A DNA stretch of 35,026 nt from positions 1 to 35,026 of the forward strand of contig JAHWKK010000029.1 in the NCBI GenBank assembly GCA_019347945.1. The letters run 5' to 3'. Positions within the stretch are counted from its first letter, which is position 1; each line of letters begins with the position of its first letter. The translations under genes and the position numbers were made by a program. Source of the DNA: Acidobacteriota bacterium. GTDB lineage: Bacteria > Acidobacteriota > Thermoanaerobaculia > Gp7-AA8 > JAHWKK01. This document shows positions 2,343-35,026 of the stretch, piece after piece. The notes below the pieces were generated by a model that was not told the origin of the DNA, did not search any database, and saw nothing but the letters and a program-made list of their open reading frames with translations.

Positions 2343-2878
2343 CGATCGGGATTGTTCCGATCTCGACGCGGGAGTCAAGTAGGTTGGAGGTTGGAGGTTG
2401 GAGGAGCCAGTTGCCGGTTGCCGGAGGCCGGTAGCCGGTTGCCGGTGTGCAACTAGGTTGATGGTTGCCACTCTTGTCCAGGTTGATTGTTACCACCCTC
2501 AGGTGGCGGCAGGAGCGGGGGGAACGTGGAAAAGGATTGCGGTGCTCGTCTCTCCTTTCTGTCCTGAGCGCTTCCACCGTTTCCGCGTTCGGGATCCGGT
2601 CAGCCCGCGCCAGCGGGCGACAGGTCTTAGCCCCCGGCTTCAGCCGGGGGACAGAAGCTTTCCTAAATTTAATGTCGAGCCCGCTTCAGCGGGCGACAGA
2701 GCGGAACAATCAACCTGGACATCTCTGGTAACAATGTACCCATCAACTGGCCACTGGCCACTGGCCACTGGCACCGGCAACCGGCAACCGACAACCGACG
2801 TCCTCGGAAATGACCCCAGGTTAGATATCGTTGGGAAACGGGCAGATCCCACAGTGCCGTGTCGTCCCGGCTCTTCCA
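2343..2878. repeat. Composite inverted-repeat element between divergent genes
   Basis: This 536-bp gap has no credible gene. From outside inward it shows AGGTTGG repeats (2381-2401), six degenerate heptads of the GGTTGCC type (2409-2450), a 17-bp arm at 2475-2491 with its exact reverse complement at 2705-2721, three hairpins (2602-2623, 2629-2654, 2678-2699), then eight in-register heptads (2743-2798) running from GCCACTG to CAACCGG to CAACCGA. The right heptads are the complement of the left ones, so the whole block is a nested inverted repeat. Promoters for plsC and the 2879 gene must lie at its edges; no clear box was seen. Confidence 0.8.
2602..2699. repeat. Three tandem AGCCC-hairpin-GACAG units
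   Basis: Three short hairpins share the frame AGCCC...GGG(C/G)GACAG. Unit 1 (2602-2623) has stem GCCCGC with loop GCCA. Unit 2 (2629-2654) has stem CCCCCGGC with loop TTCA. Unit 3 (2678-2699) has stem GCCCGC with loop TTCA. Stem bases differ between units while remaining paired, so the structure is kept by compensatory change. They resemble REP-type hairpins. None is followed by a T tract, so intrinsic termination is not supported. Confidence 0.75.
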
Positions 2879-6215: not shown

Positions 6216-6728
6216 ATCGGAACCGGGCGATCAGGATGACCAGTGTTGGAGGTTGGAGGTTCGAGGTTGGAGACTCGAAGTAATGATCTCGCGCCATTCC
6301 AACCCACGTCATTCTGAGCCCGGCGCAGCGCGGGCGAAGAATCTGGGCGGGGGATCGTGGAGAAGAGTGAAGAGTGAAGAGTGAAGAGTGAAAGAAGAGA
6401 CATCACGAAGGTAACCTCTGCATACTCTCACCCTTCACCCCCAATTCCTGCCGCCAGATCCTTCGCCGTCCTTCGGCGGCTCAGGATGAAACCACCATGA
6501 AATTGTTGGACTTCGACCCTTTTGCAGCGCTTCGCTTGGCCTGATGTCCCACCCTGCAAGGTCCCTCGCTTGCCCGCCCGACCGCCCGCTCGGGACGACG
6601 TCGGTTTGAGTATGAGGTGCGGAGTTTCGCGGACTCCGGTTTTCGTTCCCGCTTCACCGGCGCAACGCGCCGGTCAATTGCTCAGGATGACGTGGGCCGC
6701 GTTGCCCGAACTGGCAACTGGCAACTCC
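6216..6728. repeat. Composite intergenic repeat block
   Basis: No gene is seen here. In order: GTTGGAG heptads (6245-6272); an inner module (about 6312-6352, TCATTCTGAGC...GAATCTGG); four GAAGAGT heptads (6362-6389); the inverted counterpart of the module (about 6450-6488, AGATCCTTCGCC...CAGGATGA) containing hairpin CGCCGTCCTTCGGCG; a roughly 194-bp dispersed unit (6497-6690) ending in the hairpin at 6656-6674; and three CAACTGG-type heptads (6708-6728). The block lies at the 3' ends of converging transcription units, so its paired modules could stop transcription from both sides, although no T tracts support this. Confidence 0.75.
6497..6690 (+). repeat. Dispersed ~194-bp repeat unit, copy 1
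   Basis: The unit starts at ATGAAATTGTTGGACTTCG and ends near CAATTGCTCAGGATGA. The first ~125 bp recur at 9344-9470 on this strand and, reverse-complemented, at 21067-21194 and 21270-21390. The tail has a strong hairpin, ACCGGCGC-AAC-GCGCCGGT (6656-6674). It has short open frames in both directions, but frame is not conserved between copies, so it is treated as non-coding. Confidence 0.8.
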
Positions 6729-10943: not shown

Positions 10944-11245
10944 GGTGGATCAGGGATCAGGGGCCAGGAGCCAGGATTCAGGAGCCAGGATTCAGGAGCG
11001 CAGAACTCGTCATTCTGAGCCCGGCGAAGCACGGGCGAAGAATCTGGGTGGGGGATCGTGAGTCACCGTTGCCGCTCACTTGTTAACTTTTTTCACGAGC
11101 CGCCACCCAGATCCTTCGCCGTCCTTCGGCGGCTCAGGATGACGAGGGGGTGGGTTCGCGAGAGCAAACCTTCGGCCATGAATGTTGCATCGCGCAGGCT
11201 CGTCCCGCGTCCCTGAATCCTGGATCCTGGCTCCTGTCTCCTGCC
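10944..11245. repeat. Composite nested inverted repeat between convergent genes
   Basis: This 302-bp gap has no gene. Outer arms: seven heptads at 10948-10996 (GATCAGG, GGCCAGG, AGCCAGG and ATTCAGG types) and five at 11212-11246 (CCTGAAT, CCTGGAT, CCTGGCT, CCTGTCT, CCTGCCT), which are the reverse complement type. Inner arms: about 11009-11055 (TCATTCTGAGC...GAATCTGGGTGGGGG) and about 11102-11142 (CCACCCAGATCCTTCGCC...CTCAGGATGACG), again inverted. It sits between two genes reading toward each other, so it may act as a bidirectional transcription end. Confidence 0.82.
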
Positions 11246-19379: not shown

Positions 19380-20819
19380 CTACTCCTCGACGAGCACCCG
19401 CTCTCGCATCACCGTCTGGTTCCCCGCCGGATCGACCGCCTTGACGACCACGGTGTTGTAGCCGATCTTCCGGAAGGTGATCAGCTTCGAGAACGAACCA
19501 TCGGAGCCGACCGGAACCTGCTCCTCGTCGATGAAAATCGAAGCGCCCGGCTCCGCGACTCCCCGTATGATGAAGTTCGGACCACCCAGGTGAGAGGGGC
19601 GATCGAGCTGGAGTGACGGCGGCGTCGTGTCCTGCGTGACCGAGACGCCCGGCCCCTCGGAGATCCCCGTCACACGAAAACGGCGATGGCCGGAGAACGG
19701 TCCCTGCTGCCCGTTGCGATCGATCGATGCGACCCGCCAGAAGAACGAGCCGGACGATGTCAGCCGTACCCGGGCGCTCGGCCGATCGCGGCCGGCGTCG
19801 ATCTCGATGTTGCCGAAAAGCCGGGACCGCGAAACCTGAAGACGGTAACCGCCGGCAGCTCCCGGCACCGGGCGCCATTGAAGCTCGATGATCCGCCCCT
19901 TCGACGCCGATATGATCGCGTTGTCCGCTGGAGCCGTCAACGCCGGCGGCGATGTGTATCCTCGTACCTCGGAGAGTCGGCCGGAGGGATCCGCCTCGAT
20001 CCTCTGCCCCTGCTCGAGCGAAACGGTCGGACCGCCGGACGAAGCAACCGAAGAGGTTCCGCGAACGGCGGCGATCTCGGTGCCTCCGCCGGTGCGAACG
20101 TCGATCAGAGTCGTCGAGGTCGTATTGACGGTGACCGCAGTTGCGGGCGTCGAAACGGTGGAGGCATCGTCACCTGTGTTGACTTCTATCGATCCGATCT
20201 CCATCGAGACCGAGCCCGAGCGGCTCGCCGGCTGGCCGGGGCGGCGCGGATAGATTTCGAGCAGCCCGCGGGGCCCGATCGTGTAGAGTGTTCCATCGCC
20301 GAAGAAGATCTCGGCCGAGGAGTTTTCCGCGGTTCGAACCCAGTCACCTCTCTGAAGCGCGCTCCGCGCGGTCGCGCGAAGCCAGTCGCCGCTTCCGCCT
20401 CGCTGAAACTCGACCCTCCCCTCCACAGTCAGGAACTGGGCCGCGGCGCGGGCTTCCCCCTCGAGCCGCGACAGCACCGAGCGGGCCGTCGCCTCGGCTT
20501 CCCGCGCGAGTGTCTCGGCGGCGGGATAGTCGGTTCCCTCGAACGCATCCGACGCCCTCCCGAGCGTCGACTCCGCGGAATCGTACTGGGACCGGAACTC
20601 CTGAAGATTCGGCAGGGCCGCCATCTCGTTGAGCGAGTGCTCGGCGGCTTCGATTGCTGCCTGGGCCCGCTGCCTGGGCGTGCTGCCGAGGATTTCGTCC
20701 CTGAAAAGCCAGACCGTCCCCGCGACCAGAAGCAGAAGAAGGATGCCCCCGATCAATCTGAGCTTGTCGATTGAGATCAGAAACCAATCGAACGTCGATT
20801 CGCCGTCGTCCCTCGCCAT
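19380..20819 (-). CDS. Membrane-anchored FecR-domain protein with C-terminal Ig-like domains
   Basis: A 479-residue protein. Residues 20-39 are a membrane segment following a short cytoplasmic N-terminus. Residues about 45-125 are an Ala/Glu-rich helical stretch. A FecR-like domain follows (about 128-275, with VEGRVEFQRGGSGDW, LQRGDWVRTAENSSAEIFFGDGTLYTIGP and ATAVTVNTTSTTLIDVR). A fibronectin/Ig-like segment is at about 288-390 (WRPVPGAAGGYRLQVSRSR) and a final Ig-like domain from about 400 (DTTPPSLQLDRPS...VKAVDPAGNQT). This architecture suggests a periplasmic peptidoglycan- or sugar-binding role, not classic iron regulation, since no FecI-type sigma factor or TonB receptor is nearby. It ends 96 nt before mreB. 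Confidence 0.8.
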   Translation of the reverse strand: MARDDGESTFDWFLISIDKLRLIGGILLLLLVAGTVWLFRDEILGSTPRQRAQAAIEAAEHSLNEMAALPNLQEFRSQYDSAESTLGRASDAFEGTDYPAAETLAREAEATARSVLSRLEGEARAAAQFLTVEGRVEFQRGGSGDWLRATARSALQRGDWVRTAENSSAEIFFGDGTLYTIGPRGLLEIYPRRPGQPASRSGSVSMEIGSIEVNTGDDASTVSTPATAVTVNTTSTTLIDVRTGGGTEIAAVRGTSSVASSGGPTVSLEQGQRIEADPSGRLSEVRGYTSPPALTAPADNAIISASKGRIIELQWRPVPGAAGGYRLQVSRSRLFGNIEIDAGRDRPSARVRLTSSGSFFWRVASIDRNGQQGPFSGHRRFRVTGISEGPGVSVTQDTTPPSLQLDRPSHLGGPNFIIRGVAEPGASIFIDEEQVPVGSDGSFSKLITFRKIGYNTVVVKAVDPAGNQTVMRERVLVEE

Positions 20820-20837: not shown

Positions 20838-20993
20838 CCTTAAGGAGGTTGGAGGTTGGAGGTTGGAGGTTGGAGGAGCCAGGATCCAGGATTCAGGTCT
20901 GCCCGCGCTGCGCCGCGCTCAGAATGACGAATATTGTGTTTGTGCGCGACGCGACGATCATGGACGAATGTTTGCTCTGGCGAAAACCACCCC

Positions 20994-21194
20994 CTCGTTA
21001 TCCTGAGCAATTGACCGGCGCGTTGCGCCGGTGTATCGGAAATGACACCCGTGAGTAGAGAAAACCACCGCACGCCCATACTCAAACCCACGTCATCCCG
21101 AGCGGGCGGTCGGGCGGGGCAAGCGAGGGACCTTGCAGGGTGGGACATCAGGCCAGCCGAAGCGCTGCGAAAGGTCGAAGTCCAACAATTTCAT
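20994..21194 (-). repeat. Dispersed repeat unit, copy 3
   Basis: Reverse-strand copy of the unit at 6497-6690. It contains the hairpin at 21014-21032 and ends at TTTCAT (21189-21194), the complement of the unit start. Its middle (GGAAATGACACCCGTGAG) matches the copy at 9344 better than the copy at 6497, so subtypes exist. Confidence 0.75.
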
Positions 21195-21204
21195 GATCGT
21201 TTCA

Positions 21205-21390
21205 TTAGAAGCAATTGACCGGCGCGTTTGCGCCGGTGAAGCGGAGATGAAAACCGGAGCCCGCAAACCCCGCACCCCATACTCAAACCCACGTCGTCCC
21301 GAGCGGGCGGTCGAGCGGGCAAGCGAGGGACCTTGCAGGGTGGGACATCAGGCCAGGCGAAGCGTTGAGAGTGGTCGCGTCCAGGAAGTT
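21205..21390 (-). repeat. Dispersed repeat unit, copy 4
   Basis: Second reverse-strand copy, directly after copy 3, with hairpin ACCGGCGC-GTTT-GCGCCGGT (21218-21237). Its middle (GATGAAAACCGGAGCCCGC) matches the copy at 6497. Similarity decays after about 21370, where the typical start of the unit is diverged. Confidence 0.72.
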
Positions 21391-21622
21391 CGCCGTCGTG
21401 TCATTAGGAGCCGCCGAAGGACGGCGAAGGATCTGGGGGAAGGCTCGTGAAAGAAAGTGACGAGTGAGGGCAACGGTGACTCACGATCCGCCGCCCAGAT
21501 TCTTCGCCCGCGCTACGCCGGGCTCAGAATGACGACTGCTTCGCTCTCAACTCTGAATCCTGAATCCTGAATCCTGAGTCCTGAATCCTGACTCCTCCAA
21601 CCTCCAACCTCCAACCTCCAAC

Positions 21623-21656
21623 TCATTCACTTTCCGGGGCCCCGGAAAGTGAATGA
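21623..21656. promoter_or_regulatory. Perfect 34-bp palindrome upstream of ppiD
   Basis: The half-site TCATTCACTTTCCGGGG (21623-21639) is followed at once by its exact reverse complement (21640-21656), with no spacer. It overlaps the last heptad and lies 70 bp before the ppiD start. No T tract follows, so an intrinsic terminator is unlikely. It could be a cruciform, a dimeric-regulator site or an inverted-repeat junction; sequence alone does not decide. Confidence 0.6.
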
Positions 21657-21726: not shown

Positions 21727-23673
21727 ATGCTCAAAGCGATGCGTGACAGCTTCAAGCATCTCAAATGGATTCTTTTTCTGATCGTCTTCGCGTTCGTCTT
21801 CCTGGTCTTCGCGGACTGGGGTGGCGCGAACCAGGCGACCGCGACCGCGGGTGCGCCGTGGGCCGCCCGTGTCAACGGGGAGACGATCGAAGTGATCGAC
21901 TTTCAGCGACTGCTTCAGGGAACCGCATTCCAGTACGAGCAGTCGCTCGGTCGCAAACTGACCCAGGACGAGCTCGCACAGTTCGGCATTCAGGAGCAGG
22001 TGATGACCTCGCTCGTGAATCAGAAGCTGATGCTCCAGGCGGCCGAGGAGATGGGGCTCGTCGTGACCGATCAGGAGCTGCGGGAGGAGATTGCCAGGAT
22101 TCCCGTGCTCTATCCGAATGGTCAGTTCGTGGGAACCGATAAGTACGAGTACTACGTCAGATCAGTCCTCCAGTATCCGAGCACCGCTGAATTCGAGGAC
22201 GCAGTGGCGAGGGAGATCGCGATCCGCAAGCTCAACCGCGTCTTCCGCGACTCGATCGTGATTTCCGACGCGCGTGCCGAGCAGGAGTACCGGAACCGCA
22301 GCGAATCCGCCCAGATCGAGTACCTGCTCGTGCCGGTGGAGACCCGGCTGGACAGCGTCACCGTCTCGGATCAGGACGTCAACGACTACTACCTCGAGAA
22401 CACGCGAAACTATACGCACGCGGCACAGAAGAGAATCGAGTACCTCACAGTCGACGAGTCGCGACTCAGAAACGAGATCACCATCACGGAAGACGCCGTC
22501 CGTGCCCGCTTCAATTCAACCAGCTCGGAGCTGGACGAAGTGTCCGCCCAGCACATTCTCCTCACGGTCGACCCGGGAGCGGCTCCCGAGGACGAGCAGA
22601 AGATCGCCGATCTCGCCGAGAGTCTCGCCCGGCGTGCCCGTGCCGGTGAGGACTTCGGAGCGCTCGCGAGCGAGTATTCGGAAGATCCCGGATCGGCGGC
22701 GACGGGAGGCGATCTCGGAACGTTCAGCCGTGGGCGTATGGTTCCGGCATTCGAGCAGGCGGCGTTTTCCACGCCGGTCGGTCAGATCAGCGATCCCGTC
22801 CGCACCCAGTTCGGTTATCACGTCATCAAGGTCAACAGCCGGGACGTGCCGGACTTCGAGGAGATGGCCCCGGCGATCCGCGAGGAACTGATGGCGGAGC
22901 GAGTCGCGGTCGTCGCGAAGCAGCGACTCGAGGCGATCCGGGCCCGGCTCGGGGAGTCTGCGACGCCTGAGGAGTTCCGGGCCGAGGCGGACGGAGCCGT
23001 CGTTCTGAGCCAGTCTCCATGGTTCGCCGAGCGCGGTCCGATCGAGGGCCTCGGACGCGTGCCGGAAATCAATACGTGGGCGTTCGATACGGGAGTGGAG
23101 AACGGCGCGATCGGCCCGGTGACCGAATCTGGTCAGCTCGCGGGTCCGCTTCTTCCGAGAATTCTCGCGTCGAGGGAACCGGGCATCACGCCTCTCGAGG
23201 AGATCCGCGCGCAGGTCGCGCAGGAAGCCAGGAGAGCGGCGGCGCGGGCAGCGATCGAACGGGAGATGAGCTCGGGAGACTACCAGAGCATCGAAGCAGC
23301 GTCCGGTTCGCTCGGGCAGCCCGTGAGGGAAGCAGTCGTGCGTCCGAACACACCTGTCGAGGGTCTGGTCGGTTCATCCGCGGCGCTCGTCCGCGCGGCG
23401 CTGGAGGCCGAAGAGGGAGCAATCGGCGGCCCGGTGACGATCGACAGCGGAGTCGTGCTGTTCGAGGTGGTGGAAAAGACGGTATTCGATCCGGCGAAAT
23501 TCGCCGAGGAGAAGGCGAACCTGATCGAAGAGCTCAGATCGAAAGAGAGTGCGGAGCTGCGGGATGCGATGCTCGACGAGCTGCGCCAGCGAGCGAGGCT
23601 GGAGGTCAACCAGTCCTTGCTCGAGGGGCAGGATCGCGCCGGGCAGGACCACGCCGGGCACGGCCACATTTGA
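21727..23673 (+). CDS. ppiD: Membrane-anchored peptidyl-prolyl isomerase/foldase, PpiD/SurA type
   Basis: A 648-residue periplasmic folding factor with one N-terminal membrane anchor (residues about 13-30, [19 protein letters not shown]). The SurA-like N-terminal chaperone region includes [14 protein letters not shown] and [16 protein letters not shown]. The parvulin domain (about 273-370) shows [41 protein letters not shown] and [10 protein letters not shown]-terminal non-catalytic region follows, ending in a short His-rich tail (QDHAGHGHI). The start is firm: AGGAGG lies 10 nt upstream. It heads a plus-strand series of seven genes with overlaps or short gaps. Confidence 0.9.
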
Positions 23674-28394: not shown

Positions 28395-28780
28395 CCGGGA
28401 GGGCGAGGCGCCTGCCGAGCCGCACCGTCTCGAGCTTGCCCGAATCAAACCTGAAACCCACGACGTCCCATCCCCCCGGGAGGGCGAGGCGCCTGCCGAG
28501 CCGCACCGTAGCGAGCTTGCCTGAATCAACCCTGAAACCCAGGACGTCCCATCCCCCCGGGAGGGCGAGGCGCCTGCCGAGCCGCACTGTCTCGAGCTTG
28601 CCCGAATCAAACCTGAAACCCACGACGTCCCATCCCCCCGGGAGGGCGATGCGCCTGCGAGCCGCCCCGTAGCGAGCTTGCCTGAATCAACCCTGAAACC
28701 CGCGACGTTCCATTCCACCGGGAGGGCGATGCGCCTGCCGAGCCGCCCCGTAGCGAGCTTGCCTGAATCAATCATCGCGG
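28395..28780 (+). repeat. Array of five ~81-bp REP-containing units
   Basis: Units start at 28395, 28476, 28557, 28638 and 28718 (periods 81, 81, 81 and 80). Each begins with a ~31-bp GC-rich core, CCGGGAGGGCGAGGCG then CCTGCCGAGCCGC, able to fold around GGCGCC. The rest is linker. Units 1 and 3 share one linker form (CTCGAGCTTGCCCG) and 2, 4 and 5 another (AGCGAGCTTGCCTG), so there is a 162-bp higher-order period. The last unit runs into the stop codon of the transposase gene. It fills the convergent gap between cmk and the RAYT gene; nothing else is seen there. Confidence 0.88.
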
Positions 28781-29304: not shown

Positions 29305-29540
29305 GCGCCAGTTCGTCGCGGTGCGGCTCGGCAGGCGCCTCGCCCTCCCGGTGAGATGTTTCATCGCGCCAGTTCGTCGCGGTGCGGCTCGGCCGGCGCC
29401 TCGCCCTCCCGGTGAGATGTTTCATCGCGCCAGCTTGTCACGGGGCGGCTCGGCGGGCGCCTCGCCCTCCCGGTGAGATGTTTCATCGCGCCAGCCCGTC
29501 GCGGTGCGGCTCGGCGGGCGCCTCGCCCTCCCGGTGATGG
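29305..29540 (-). repeat. Array of four 61-bp REP-containing units, opposed to the 28395 array
   Basis: Units start at 29305, 29366, 29427 and 29488. Each holds GTGCGGCTCGG then a GCGCCTCGCCCTCCCGG stretch, the reverse complement of the core at 28395, joined by a shorter linker (GTGAGATGTTTCATCGCGCC). Variation between units is concentrated at the centre of the hairpin (GGCAGGCGCC, GGCCGGCGCC, GGCGGGCGCC). The array lies between the RAYT start and the 3' end of pckA; no gene is seen in this 305-bp gap. Confidence 0.87.
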
Positions 29541-32695: not shown

Positions 32696-33319
32696 ATGAT
32701 GAAAACCCTCAGAGTTTCTCTGACAGCTTTGTTCGTCGCATTCGTTGCTTCGGGCGTGTCGGCTTCGACCGCATCCGAGCTTCGCGACGCTCTGATGAAG
32801 AGCGCCGGTCATCGCGCCGACTTCACCCAGGAGTTCACGGCAAAGGGCTTCAGCAAACCGCGTGTCGAATCGGGGAGCGTCGTGATTGGAAAACTTCCGA
32901 ACATGCGCTGGAGCTACGAGAGCCCGGAGGTCAAGACGTTCGTTTTCGACGGCACGACCTCGTGGTTCTGGGCGAAGGAAGACAACCAGGTGCTCGTTCA
33001 CGAGGTGGGCGCGGACGAGAGAGCGTCGCTCCCATTCGTGTTTCTGACGAACACGGAGTGGCTCGAACAGAATTACGCGATCTCGCAGGAGTCGAGGCAG
33101 GGCTCGAAGGTCGTGAAGCTCGCACCGAAAAAGCGGGGACTCGTCAGCGAGATCGAGATCGAGGTCGATCGCAGATCCGGATACGTCCGCGAGCTGAGCT
33201 GGGTCGACGACGCGGGCAACCGGACCAGGTTCCGGCTGTCGAACTACCGGCCGGTCCGAGTCGCTGCATCGACGTTCTCCTTCGACCCGCCTCCGGGCGC
33301 CTCGGTTGTCGAGAACTGA
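32696..33319 (+). CDS. lolA: Outer-membrane lipoprotein carrier protein LolA
   Basis: Periplasmic chaperone that carries lipoproteins from LolCDE to the outer membrane; 207 residues with a signal peptide (residues about 1-24, cleavage near VSASTA). Family features include RADFTQEFTAKGFSKPRVESGSVVIGKLPNMRWSYESPEVKTFVFDG and the later LSWVDDAGNRTRFRLSNYRP. An AGGAG lies 5-9 nt before the paired ATGs at 32696 and 32699. No LolB gene is visible. A decamer repeat spans its stop codon. Confidence 0.88.
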   Translation: MMKTLRVSLTALFVAFVASGVSASTASELRDALMKSAGHRADFTQEFTAKGFSKPRVESGSVVIGKLPNMRWSYESPEVKTFVFDGTTSWFWAKEDNQVLVHEVGADERASLPFVFLTNTEWLEQNYAISQESRQGSKVVKLAPKKRGLVSEIEIEVDRRSGYVRELSWVDDAGNRTRFRLSNYRPVRVAASTFSFDPPPGASVVEN

Positions 33320-33349
33320 CGAGAACTGACGAGAACTGACGAGAACTGA
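33309..33349 (+). repeat. Decamer tandem repeat across the lolA stop
   Basis: About four copies of ACGAGAACTG, the first containing the lolA stop codon. The 10-bp period means each later copy offers a stop in a changing frame. It lies just before the yajQ Shine-Dalgarno (GGGGAGG). Confidence 0.75.
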
Positions 33350-34909: not shown

Positions 34910-35026
34910 GGTTGGAGGTTCGAGGTTGGAGGTTGGAAGAGTGAAGAGTGAAGAGTGAAGAGTGAAGAGTGAAGAGTGAAGAGTGAAGAGTGAAGAGTGA
35001 AGAGTGAAGAGTGAAGAGTGAAGAGT
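34909..35026 (+). repeat. In-register heptad array at the window end
   Basis: Four AGGTTGG-type heptads (34909-34936, one with TTCG) continue without a register break into nearly thirteen copies of AAGAGTG (34937-35026). The first heptad includes the last base of the ispB stop codon. The array runs off the window edge, so its true length and any inverted partner are unknown. Confidence 0.92.

Follow-up and report, generated by a model that had tools for sequence, protein, structure and literature searches.

Inverted heptad arrays and nested palindromes at gene junctions in Acidobacteriota

The cyanobacterial heptads known as short tandemly repeated repetitive (STRR) sequences are a named class of bacterial repeats. 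Related arrays have been described in several other groups, and the papers concerned are cited here for their accessible parts. G-rich GGGNATC heptamers are present in Xanthomonas and Nostoc, with 70 and 75 convergent heptamer pairs in two Xanthomonas genomes; their function and origin were left open in these parts, in which three Calothrix heptads are also mentioned (Rehm et al. 2015, PMC4692102). In Geobacter metallireducens, tandem octads (GTTGCTYN), paired on opposite strands at variable distance, and heptads (MTYCTGA) were presented as putative global regulator sites (PMC2700814, 2009). The TAACTGA heptamers of the Beggiatoaceae are almost always direct, with one indirect repeat, and lie mostly just before start codons (PMC4679880). 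Finally, CGTC-tagged REPs form dimers, which in three species lie within larger palindromes (Di Nocera et al. 2013, PMC3733652).

The window considered here is a stretch of 35,026 nucleotides from an Acidobacteriota genome (contig JAHWKK010000029.1). At 20844-21624 it holds a 781-bp block between two genes, with the following parts and neighbours.

19380..20819 (-): left neighbour gene, FecR and Glucodextran_B domains, with 25 bp between its start codon and the left arm
20844..20878 (+): outer arm on the left, some 4.7 copies of GGAGGTT (20844-20876), passing into GGAGGAG
20879..20897 (+): left inner heptads, CCAGGAT-CCAGGAT-TCAGG (CAGGAT-type)
20901..20930 (-): REP-like module, core CGTCATTCTGAGC on the minus strand
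21006..21209 (+): unit of about 200 bp, copy 1, a dispersed repeat with approximate bounds
21210..21410 (+): unit of about 200 bp, copy 2, bounds approximate
21506..21535 (-): second REP-like module, repeating 20901-20930 in direct orientation (93%)
21552..21596 (-): inner heptads on the right, CTGAATC (ATCCTGA), counterpart of 20879-20897
21594..21622 (-): outer arm on the right, CCTCCAA heptads, counterpart of 20844-20878
21727..23673 (+): right neighbour gene, SurA_N / PpiC rotamase, beginning about 105 bp from the right arm

The initial annotation of this DNA had described heptad arrays at both ends of the block, with motif and order both reverse-complemented, and this is what is found: GGAGGTT and CAGGAT-type heptads on the left are answered by CTGAATC and CCTCCAA heptads on the right, and the two ends, separated by 675 nt, make up a 50-nt inverted repeat with 94% complementarity. 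It was equally correct in placing the block between divergent genes (the FecR-domain gene on the minus strand, the SurA_N/PpiC rotamase gene on the plus strand), in seeing no transposase inside it, and in recognizing two copies of a unit put at about 194 bp, which measures about 200 bp and is made of blocks 83-100% identical at a spacing of 200-205 bp. Its phrase "nested inverted repeats" is true of the outer arms, but not of all layers, since 20901-20930 and 21506-21535, the inner modules, repeat each other in the same orientation. As a single folded DNA strand, 20840-21625 reaches -187.5 kcal/mol, compared with -142.5 +/- 6.2 for 20 shuffles; its stability lies 7.3 standard deviations beyond the shuffles, and the outer arms pair.

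Searching the genome of origin with the block gave 81 matches including the block itself, all others being in pieces; over its full length the block was matched by itself only, and the second-best match spans 365-748 of the query at 86%. The parts of the block are found elsewhere in different combinations, as the annotation's alternative reading of a modular block had implied. The outer heptad pattern GGAGGTTGGAGGTTGGAGG is found at 25 positions of this genome, which often overlap, so that the arrays are fewer than 25. Among known RNAs, the block matched just a CRISPR repeat below threshold (20.6 bits, cut-off 42; E 0.29), which was ascribed to chance. Next to the block, a perfect 34-bp palindrome with zero spacer (21623-21656) abuts the right arm and leaves 70 bp to the SurA_N gene; the sampled stretches of the genome yielded no further copy. 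The 781-bp block is real, and it is a layered junction, with inverted heptad arrays outside and palindromes and a dispersed repeat inside.

Three further gaps of the window are built in a like manner.

2379..2799: arm of GGAGGTT/CCGGTTG/CCAGTTG at 2379-2446 and inverted CCAGTGG/CCGGTTG arm at 2744-2799
6244..6727: outer arms unmatched, GGAGGTT on the left and CCAGTTG on the right
10958..11243: CAGGAGC arm facing an inverted CCTGGAT arm, in a gap between two convergent genes

The interior of the second contains REP-like cores and GAAGAGT heptads (6360-6393), and the arms of the third enclose a pair of opposed REP-like modules. Two arrays of long palindromic units, of about 81 bp (28395-28771) and about 61 bp (29305-29537), lie between convergent genes and are mutually inverted, so that they have the same head-to-head tandem plan with a far longer unit. 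At 33310-33349, CGAGAACTGA is present in four exact copies; the gene that ends at 33319 has its stop codon in the first of them, and the gene end itself is thereby repeated past the stop. The contig stops within 13 exact copies of GAAGAGT (34936-35026); it is therefore probable that assemblies break at long arrays and that the counts of the longest are too low.

The period of these arrays was surveyed in two samples of the same genome, the first consisting of the window and 20 partly chosen stretches (435 kb), the second, held out, of 20 preset stretches (400 kb). They contain 24 and 21 exact period-7 arrays, respectively, and each other period from 4 to 13 is represented by 0-1 array in either sample. 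Period-7 bases make up 3.1% of gap bases versus 0.02% of coding bases (first sample), and the arrays sit at gene edges, at a median distance of 18-42 bp. The G-rich strand begins at the nearer gene for 64 of 70 arrays in the first sample and 37 of 43 in the held-out one, and for 68 of 88 in G005, a genome from another family of the same order; exceptions to this nearest-gene polarity (6/43 held out, 20/88 in G005) are more frequent than by the 5'-arm measure given below. The heptads are diverse (GGAGGTT, GAAGAGT, CAGGGAT, CCGGTTG, GAGTCCT, AATTGAA, CAGATCG, CAGACCG, and others) and their families are multi-copy within each genome, yet the more than 20 commonest have one common architecture. 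GGG is lacking in the major families GAAGAGT, AATTGAA, and GAGTCCT. No array was detected in 100 kb from each of two genomes (G040, G012) representing two other families of the class. In G005 (L108, L099, L101), several genes run into an array and terminate at a TGA supplied by the heptad, e.g. GAGTCCTGA; as the unit is 7 bp long, such a heptad-borne TGA falls in all three frames.

Gaps with arrays on both sides tend to carry one heptad in inverted orientation on the two sides. This is the case for 13 of 19 such gaps in the first sample (permutation mean 4.3; reached by 0 of 5000 permutations), 7 of 9 in the held-out sample (mean 2.7; 15 of 5000), 22 of 25 in G005 (mean 6.8; 0 of 5000), 13 of 16 in G041 (0 of 3000), 6 of 6 in G021 (99 of 3000), and 3 of 3 in G013, where the count is reached by 515 of 3000 permutations and is not significant. 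Altogether, five genomes of the order yield 81 matched period-7 pairs, in which G exceeds C in the 5' arm of 77, falls short of it in 3, and equals it in 1, a measure that is independent of judging which gene is nearer. The same polarity is seen whatever the orientation of the neighbouring genes (++ 23/23, -- 22/24, -+ 19/20, +- 13/14). Octads obey it less strictly than heptads (14 of 17 pairs G-first), and the few arrays of periods 5, 6, and 9-12 form 3 pairs altogether. Purine loading was considered and rejected, as the 5' arm is purine-rich in just 50 of 77 matched pairs, ties excluded, versus 76 of 79 for G over C; the relevant property is therefore G over C. Because heptads without G-tracts have the same polarity, the G-quadruplex is not the cause of the geometry.

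Such a geometry could be that of selected regulatory or structural sites, either transcript hairpins with the G-rich arm first (Rho protection, mRNA end stability) or sites of a global regulator. The location of the arrays at gene edges would suit such sites, a G-first polarity would keep the C-rich RNA paired, and the paired 7-8-mers of Geobacter metallireducens carry an annotation as putative binding sites of a global regulator in the accessible text (PMC2700814). However, if transcription were the cause, the polarity should be looser between convergent genes, where read-through matters differently; it is not looser there (13/14), which points to the making of the hairpins. Orthologous junctions bear on this reading further.

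Two sets of genes were traced across 18 genomes of a neighbouring family, and changes at four of their junctions (J1 to J4) were counted on a tree of 17. G025 was dropped at J2 before counting (gap -1118), G057 at J1 and G021 at J2 were unscored as a neighbour was absent, and the state of G045 at J1 is based on a partial gene (gap -24). The initial annotation had proposed a search for empty sites in relatives, and they exist. J3 is a 4-bp stop/start overlap in 14 of 17 genomes, and the other three carry a palindromic insert: a 106-bp CAGATCG hairpin in G005, in its sister G041 a 184-bp insert whose CAGACCG heptads enclose another palindrome, on the same nested plan as the window's block, and in G060 a palindrome differing from both. 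J4 is an overlap in 10 of 17, including G005, and its sister G041 has a 124-bp GGTGCTC hairpin there. At J1, scored in 13 genomes, G041, G033, and G049 have the overlap (gap -4), and hairpins are made of GATGAAG in G017, a GGTGCTG/GAGTGCT mix in G021, AAGGCAG in G025, and AATGTTG in G037; that of G005 is weaker (3 of 100 shuffles reach it), and G013 has one array as a single arm. J2 has an insert or gap in nearly all genomes and is therefore uninformative on direction. The minimum numbers of state changes on the tree are 4 for J1, 1 for J2, 2 for J3, and 5 for J4. An inverted repeat beating all 100 shuffles is present in 18 of the 26 inserts of at least 30 bp; in the other 8, one of which is the single-armed insert of G013 at J1, it is not beyond the shuffles. 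Palindromes, mostly heptad hairpins, have thus been repeatedly inserted at junctions, with both arms of one kind.

The sister genomes G005 and G041 were also compared gap by gap, with orthologues defined by at least 50% identity and low-identity pairs (L107/L159) excluded. Among 31 orthologous gaps in which at least one side has 40 bp or more, arrays are found in either genome in 15, a fraction that is biased by the choice of some G041 contigs for array matches, and in both in 6. At one junction of G041 (L186:977-1114) the hairpin is made of octads (CTCAGTTA/CTCAGTTG) in agreement with GTTGCTYN of Geobacter, and the orthologous junction of G005 (L097:15764-15892) bears GCTCTTG heptads. Since sister species differ in the heptad at the same junction, there is no fixed binding site, and at J3 the hairpin is missing from most orthologous junctions; selected sites are accordingly an unlikely explanation of the hairpins. 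For the window itself, family and genus are represented by one genome, so that gain at its own locus is read by analogy: gain, matched arms, and polarity, as observed in the relatives, probably hold for 20844-21624 as well.

The interior of the hairpins bears on whether they travel as units. Among hairpins of the same family in G005, 0 of 54 pairs have similar spacers, which argues against copied elements, and several of the longer spacers hold other dispersed palindromes. REP-like cores (CGTCAT[CT]C[CT]GAGC) number 67 in gaps and 0 in genes of the sample, and occupy 34 of 347 gaps. In the inner modules a CGTC tag is followed by AT, which opens the stem, and the sequence past the stem reads CTGG (no consensus built), to be compared with a CCA tail. 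Heptads and REP-like cores occur together in 23 gaps of the window's own genome, and on 39 of the 46 sides of these gaps the heptads are outermost. Taken together, spacers and nesting indicate that the nested look of the block is best read as palindromes within a heptad hairpin. A single composite transposon was rejected for lack of a second full copy in the genome and for the unrelated spacers.

Another version of mobility would have miniature elements moved by a transposase in trans, for instance of the Y1/REP-associated type, with the arms as recognised ends and spread as units. The genome has 8 Y1_Tnp loci, the heptad families are multi-copy within each genome, presence and absence at junctions is clean, and REP dimers within larger palindromes are published for three species (PMC3733652, accessible parts), all of which would be expected of such elements. 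On the other hand, same-family copies are without common spacers, and no heptad array or REP-like core was found at the 8 Y1_Tnp loci in the stretches examined, several of which are cut by contig ends; spread driven by Y1/RAYT was rejected for this reason. Four of these Y1_Tnp genes (L009, L011, L014, L015) lie within about 1 kb of a contig end, as if in unresolved repeats. One architecture is common to more than 20 of the commonest heptads, and no target duplication was recognised beyond what the ATGA overlap requires: where such an overlap has been split, no shared flank is seen by eye beyond the ATG needed anyway for retained stop and start codons. Mobile elements of this kind are decidedly improbable. 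As to the initial annotation, its observations are mostly right and its modular reading is right, but its reading as a single non-autonomous element is wrong, given the dissimilar spacers, sister species that differ in heptads per junction, and the independent, unrelated repeats found in orthologous gaps of relatives.

Two properties of the arms suggest how they change. Their lengths are uncorrelated within pairs (rho 0.08), and for spacers of at most 60 bp, a split chosen post hoc, 23 pairs have arm variants that line up better when counted from the loop, and 8 have variants that do so when counted from the outer end (9 versus 12 for longer spacers; p=0.19 for all 81 pairs). Both are expected if a junction hairpin or array expands one arm by slippage and template switching within the hairpin copies the change, in a quasi-palindrome correction that makes a break, tailing, and mobility all unnecessary. 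Period 7 would agree with this, being a known excess in bacterial simple repeats according to earlier work cited in the accessible parts of PMC4692102. Slippage with correction nevertheless leaves unexplained why 77 of 81 pairs have a G-rich 5' arm, how a full hairpin came to lie within a 4-bp overlap, and why the same resident heptads surround unrelated spacers at different loci, and as a sufficient cause it is possible but rather doubtful.

The explanation preferred here, with slightly better than even confidence, is a layered junction in which heptad hairpins are recurrently gained by a repair-linked extension of G-rich 3' ends. The first layer would be the heptad hairpin, a short spacer between inverted arrays of one 7-bp unit with the G-rich arm first, gained again and again between genes in this taxonomic order, even within 4-bp start/stop overlaps. 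Each gain would bring a new spacer, and its heptad would be one of the few that the genome already carries. A junction break or a stalled fork may expose 3' ends, which would be extended by G-rich heptads. The second arm could be a fold-back copy of the first, or could arise by like tailing of the other end followed by joining; the better loop-side match of compact hairpins (23 versus 8) is a weak sign of fold-back. Arm lengths would then be altered by slippage. In the second layer, other palindromes, namely the CGTC-type REP-like modules and the dispersed unit of about 200 bp, lie inside the hairpin and probably entered it later. Inserts would survive at junctions because neither gene is destroyed. 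No host function is necessary in this scheme, and the long transcript hairpins may be a by-product open to use by selection.

A more specific version of repair-linked extension, in which the hairpins are scars of telomere-like repair with both 3' ends tailed by G-rich heptads and joined around filler, is quite unlikely. If true, it would yield in one step the matched families, the head-to-head geometry, and G-rich strands that start at the genes, and it would also explain the unrelated spacers and the lineage-specific heptads. Bacteria would then have an activity for adding short tandem repeats to the ends of DNA, and its template or stutter would vary by lineage.

Set beside the accessible accounts of described systems, the arrays of this lineage have in common with the heptamers of Xanthomonas and Nostoc (PMC4692102) the 7-bp unit, a mostly intergenic location, the turnover of lengths between species, a G-rich strand that begins by the nearer 5' gene in either gene direction, and convergent pairs, of which 81 matched ones are counted here in five genomes. 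Unlike the single G4-capable heptad of those genera, there are many heptads here, several without G-tracts (GAAGAGT, AATTGAA, GAGTCCT) and with the same polarity, and divergent gaps carry pairs too (19/20 G-first). A matched family per gap, empty sites, and nested palindromes are seen here and not in the accessible parts of that paper. The Geobacter heptad MTYCTGA fits the ATCCTGA heptad of the window, but the Geobacter sites are described as protein-binding, and the accessible text has nothing on gain, polarity, or change of family; insertion sequences at a fixed distance from the sites are noted there and not here (PMC2700814). The inner modules resemble CGTC-tagged REPs in the CGTC tag, in the AT at the start of the stem, and in being confined to gaps, sometimes as opposed pairs, but they differ from the accessible descriptions in a CTGG-like tail instead of CCA and in enclosing palindromes made of tandem heptads (PMC3733652). 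The TAACTGA repeats of the Beggiatoaceae are likewise intergenic tandem 7-bp units by gene edges, but with a single heptad (PMC4679880, accessible parts), and the STRR heptads of cyanobacteria resemble the present ones in that several occur in tandem per genome, their pairing and polarity being undescribed in the accessible accounts. A literature search covering few subscription journals found no account of matched arms of multiple families or of empty start/stop overlaps.

Paired arrays of 7-8-mers are known, then, from Xanthomonas (2015) and Geobacter (2009), unexplained in the accessible parts of those reports; new here are a rule that spans many families, heptads lacking G-tracts, nesting, and empty sites. 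An excess of 7-bp repeats and convergent pairing had been noted in unrelated bacteria; this lineage supplies a natural series of empty start/stop overlaps and of full hairpins whose heptads differ among relatives at one junction, and it also illustrates the build-up of "nested" intergenic mosaics. What is conserved is the geometry (inverted, G-first, units of 7 or 8) and not the sequence, so that G-quadruplexes and fixed protein sites can be set aside as its cause, and the question becomes how DNA ends or forks are processed. The phenomenon is a wider, multi-sequence version of a known repeat class, to which it adds a direction of change and a strict geometry.
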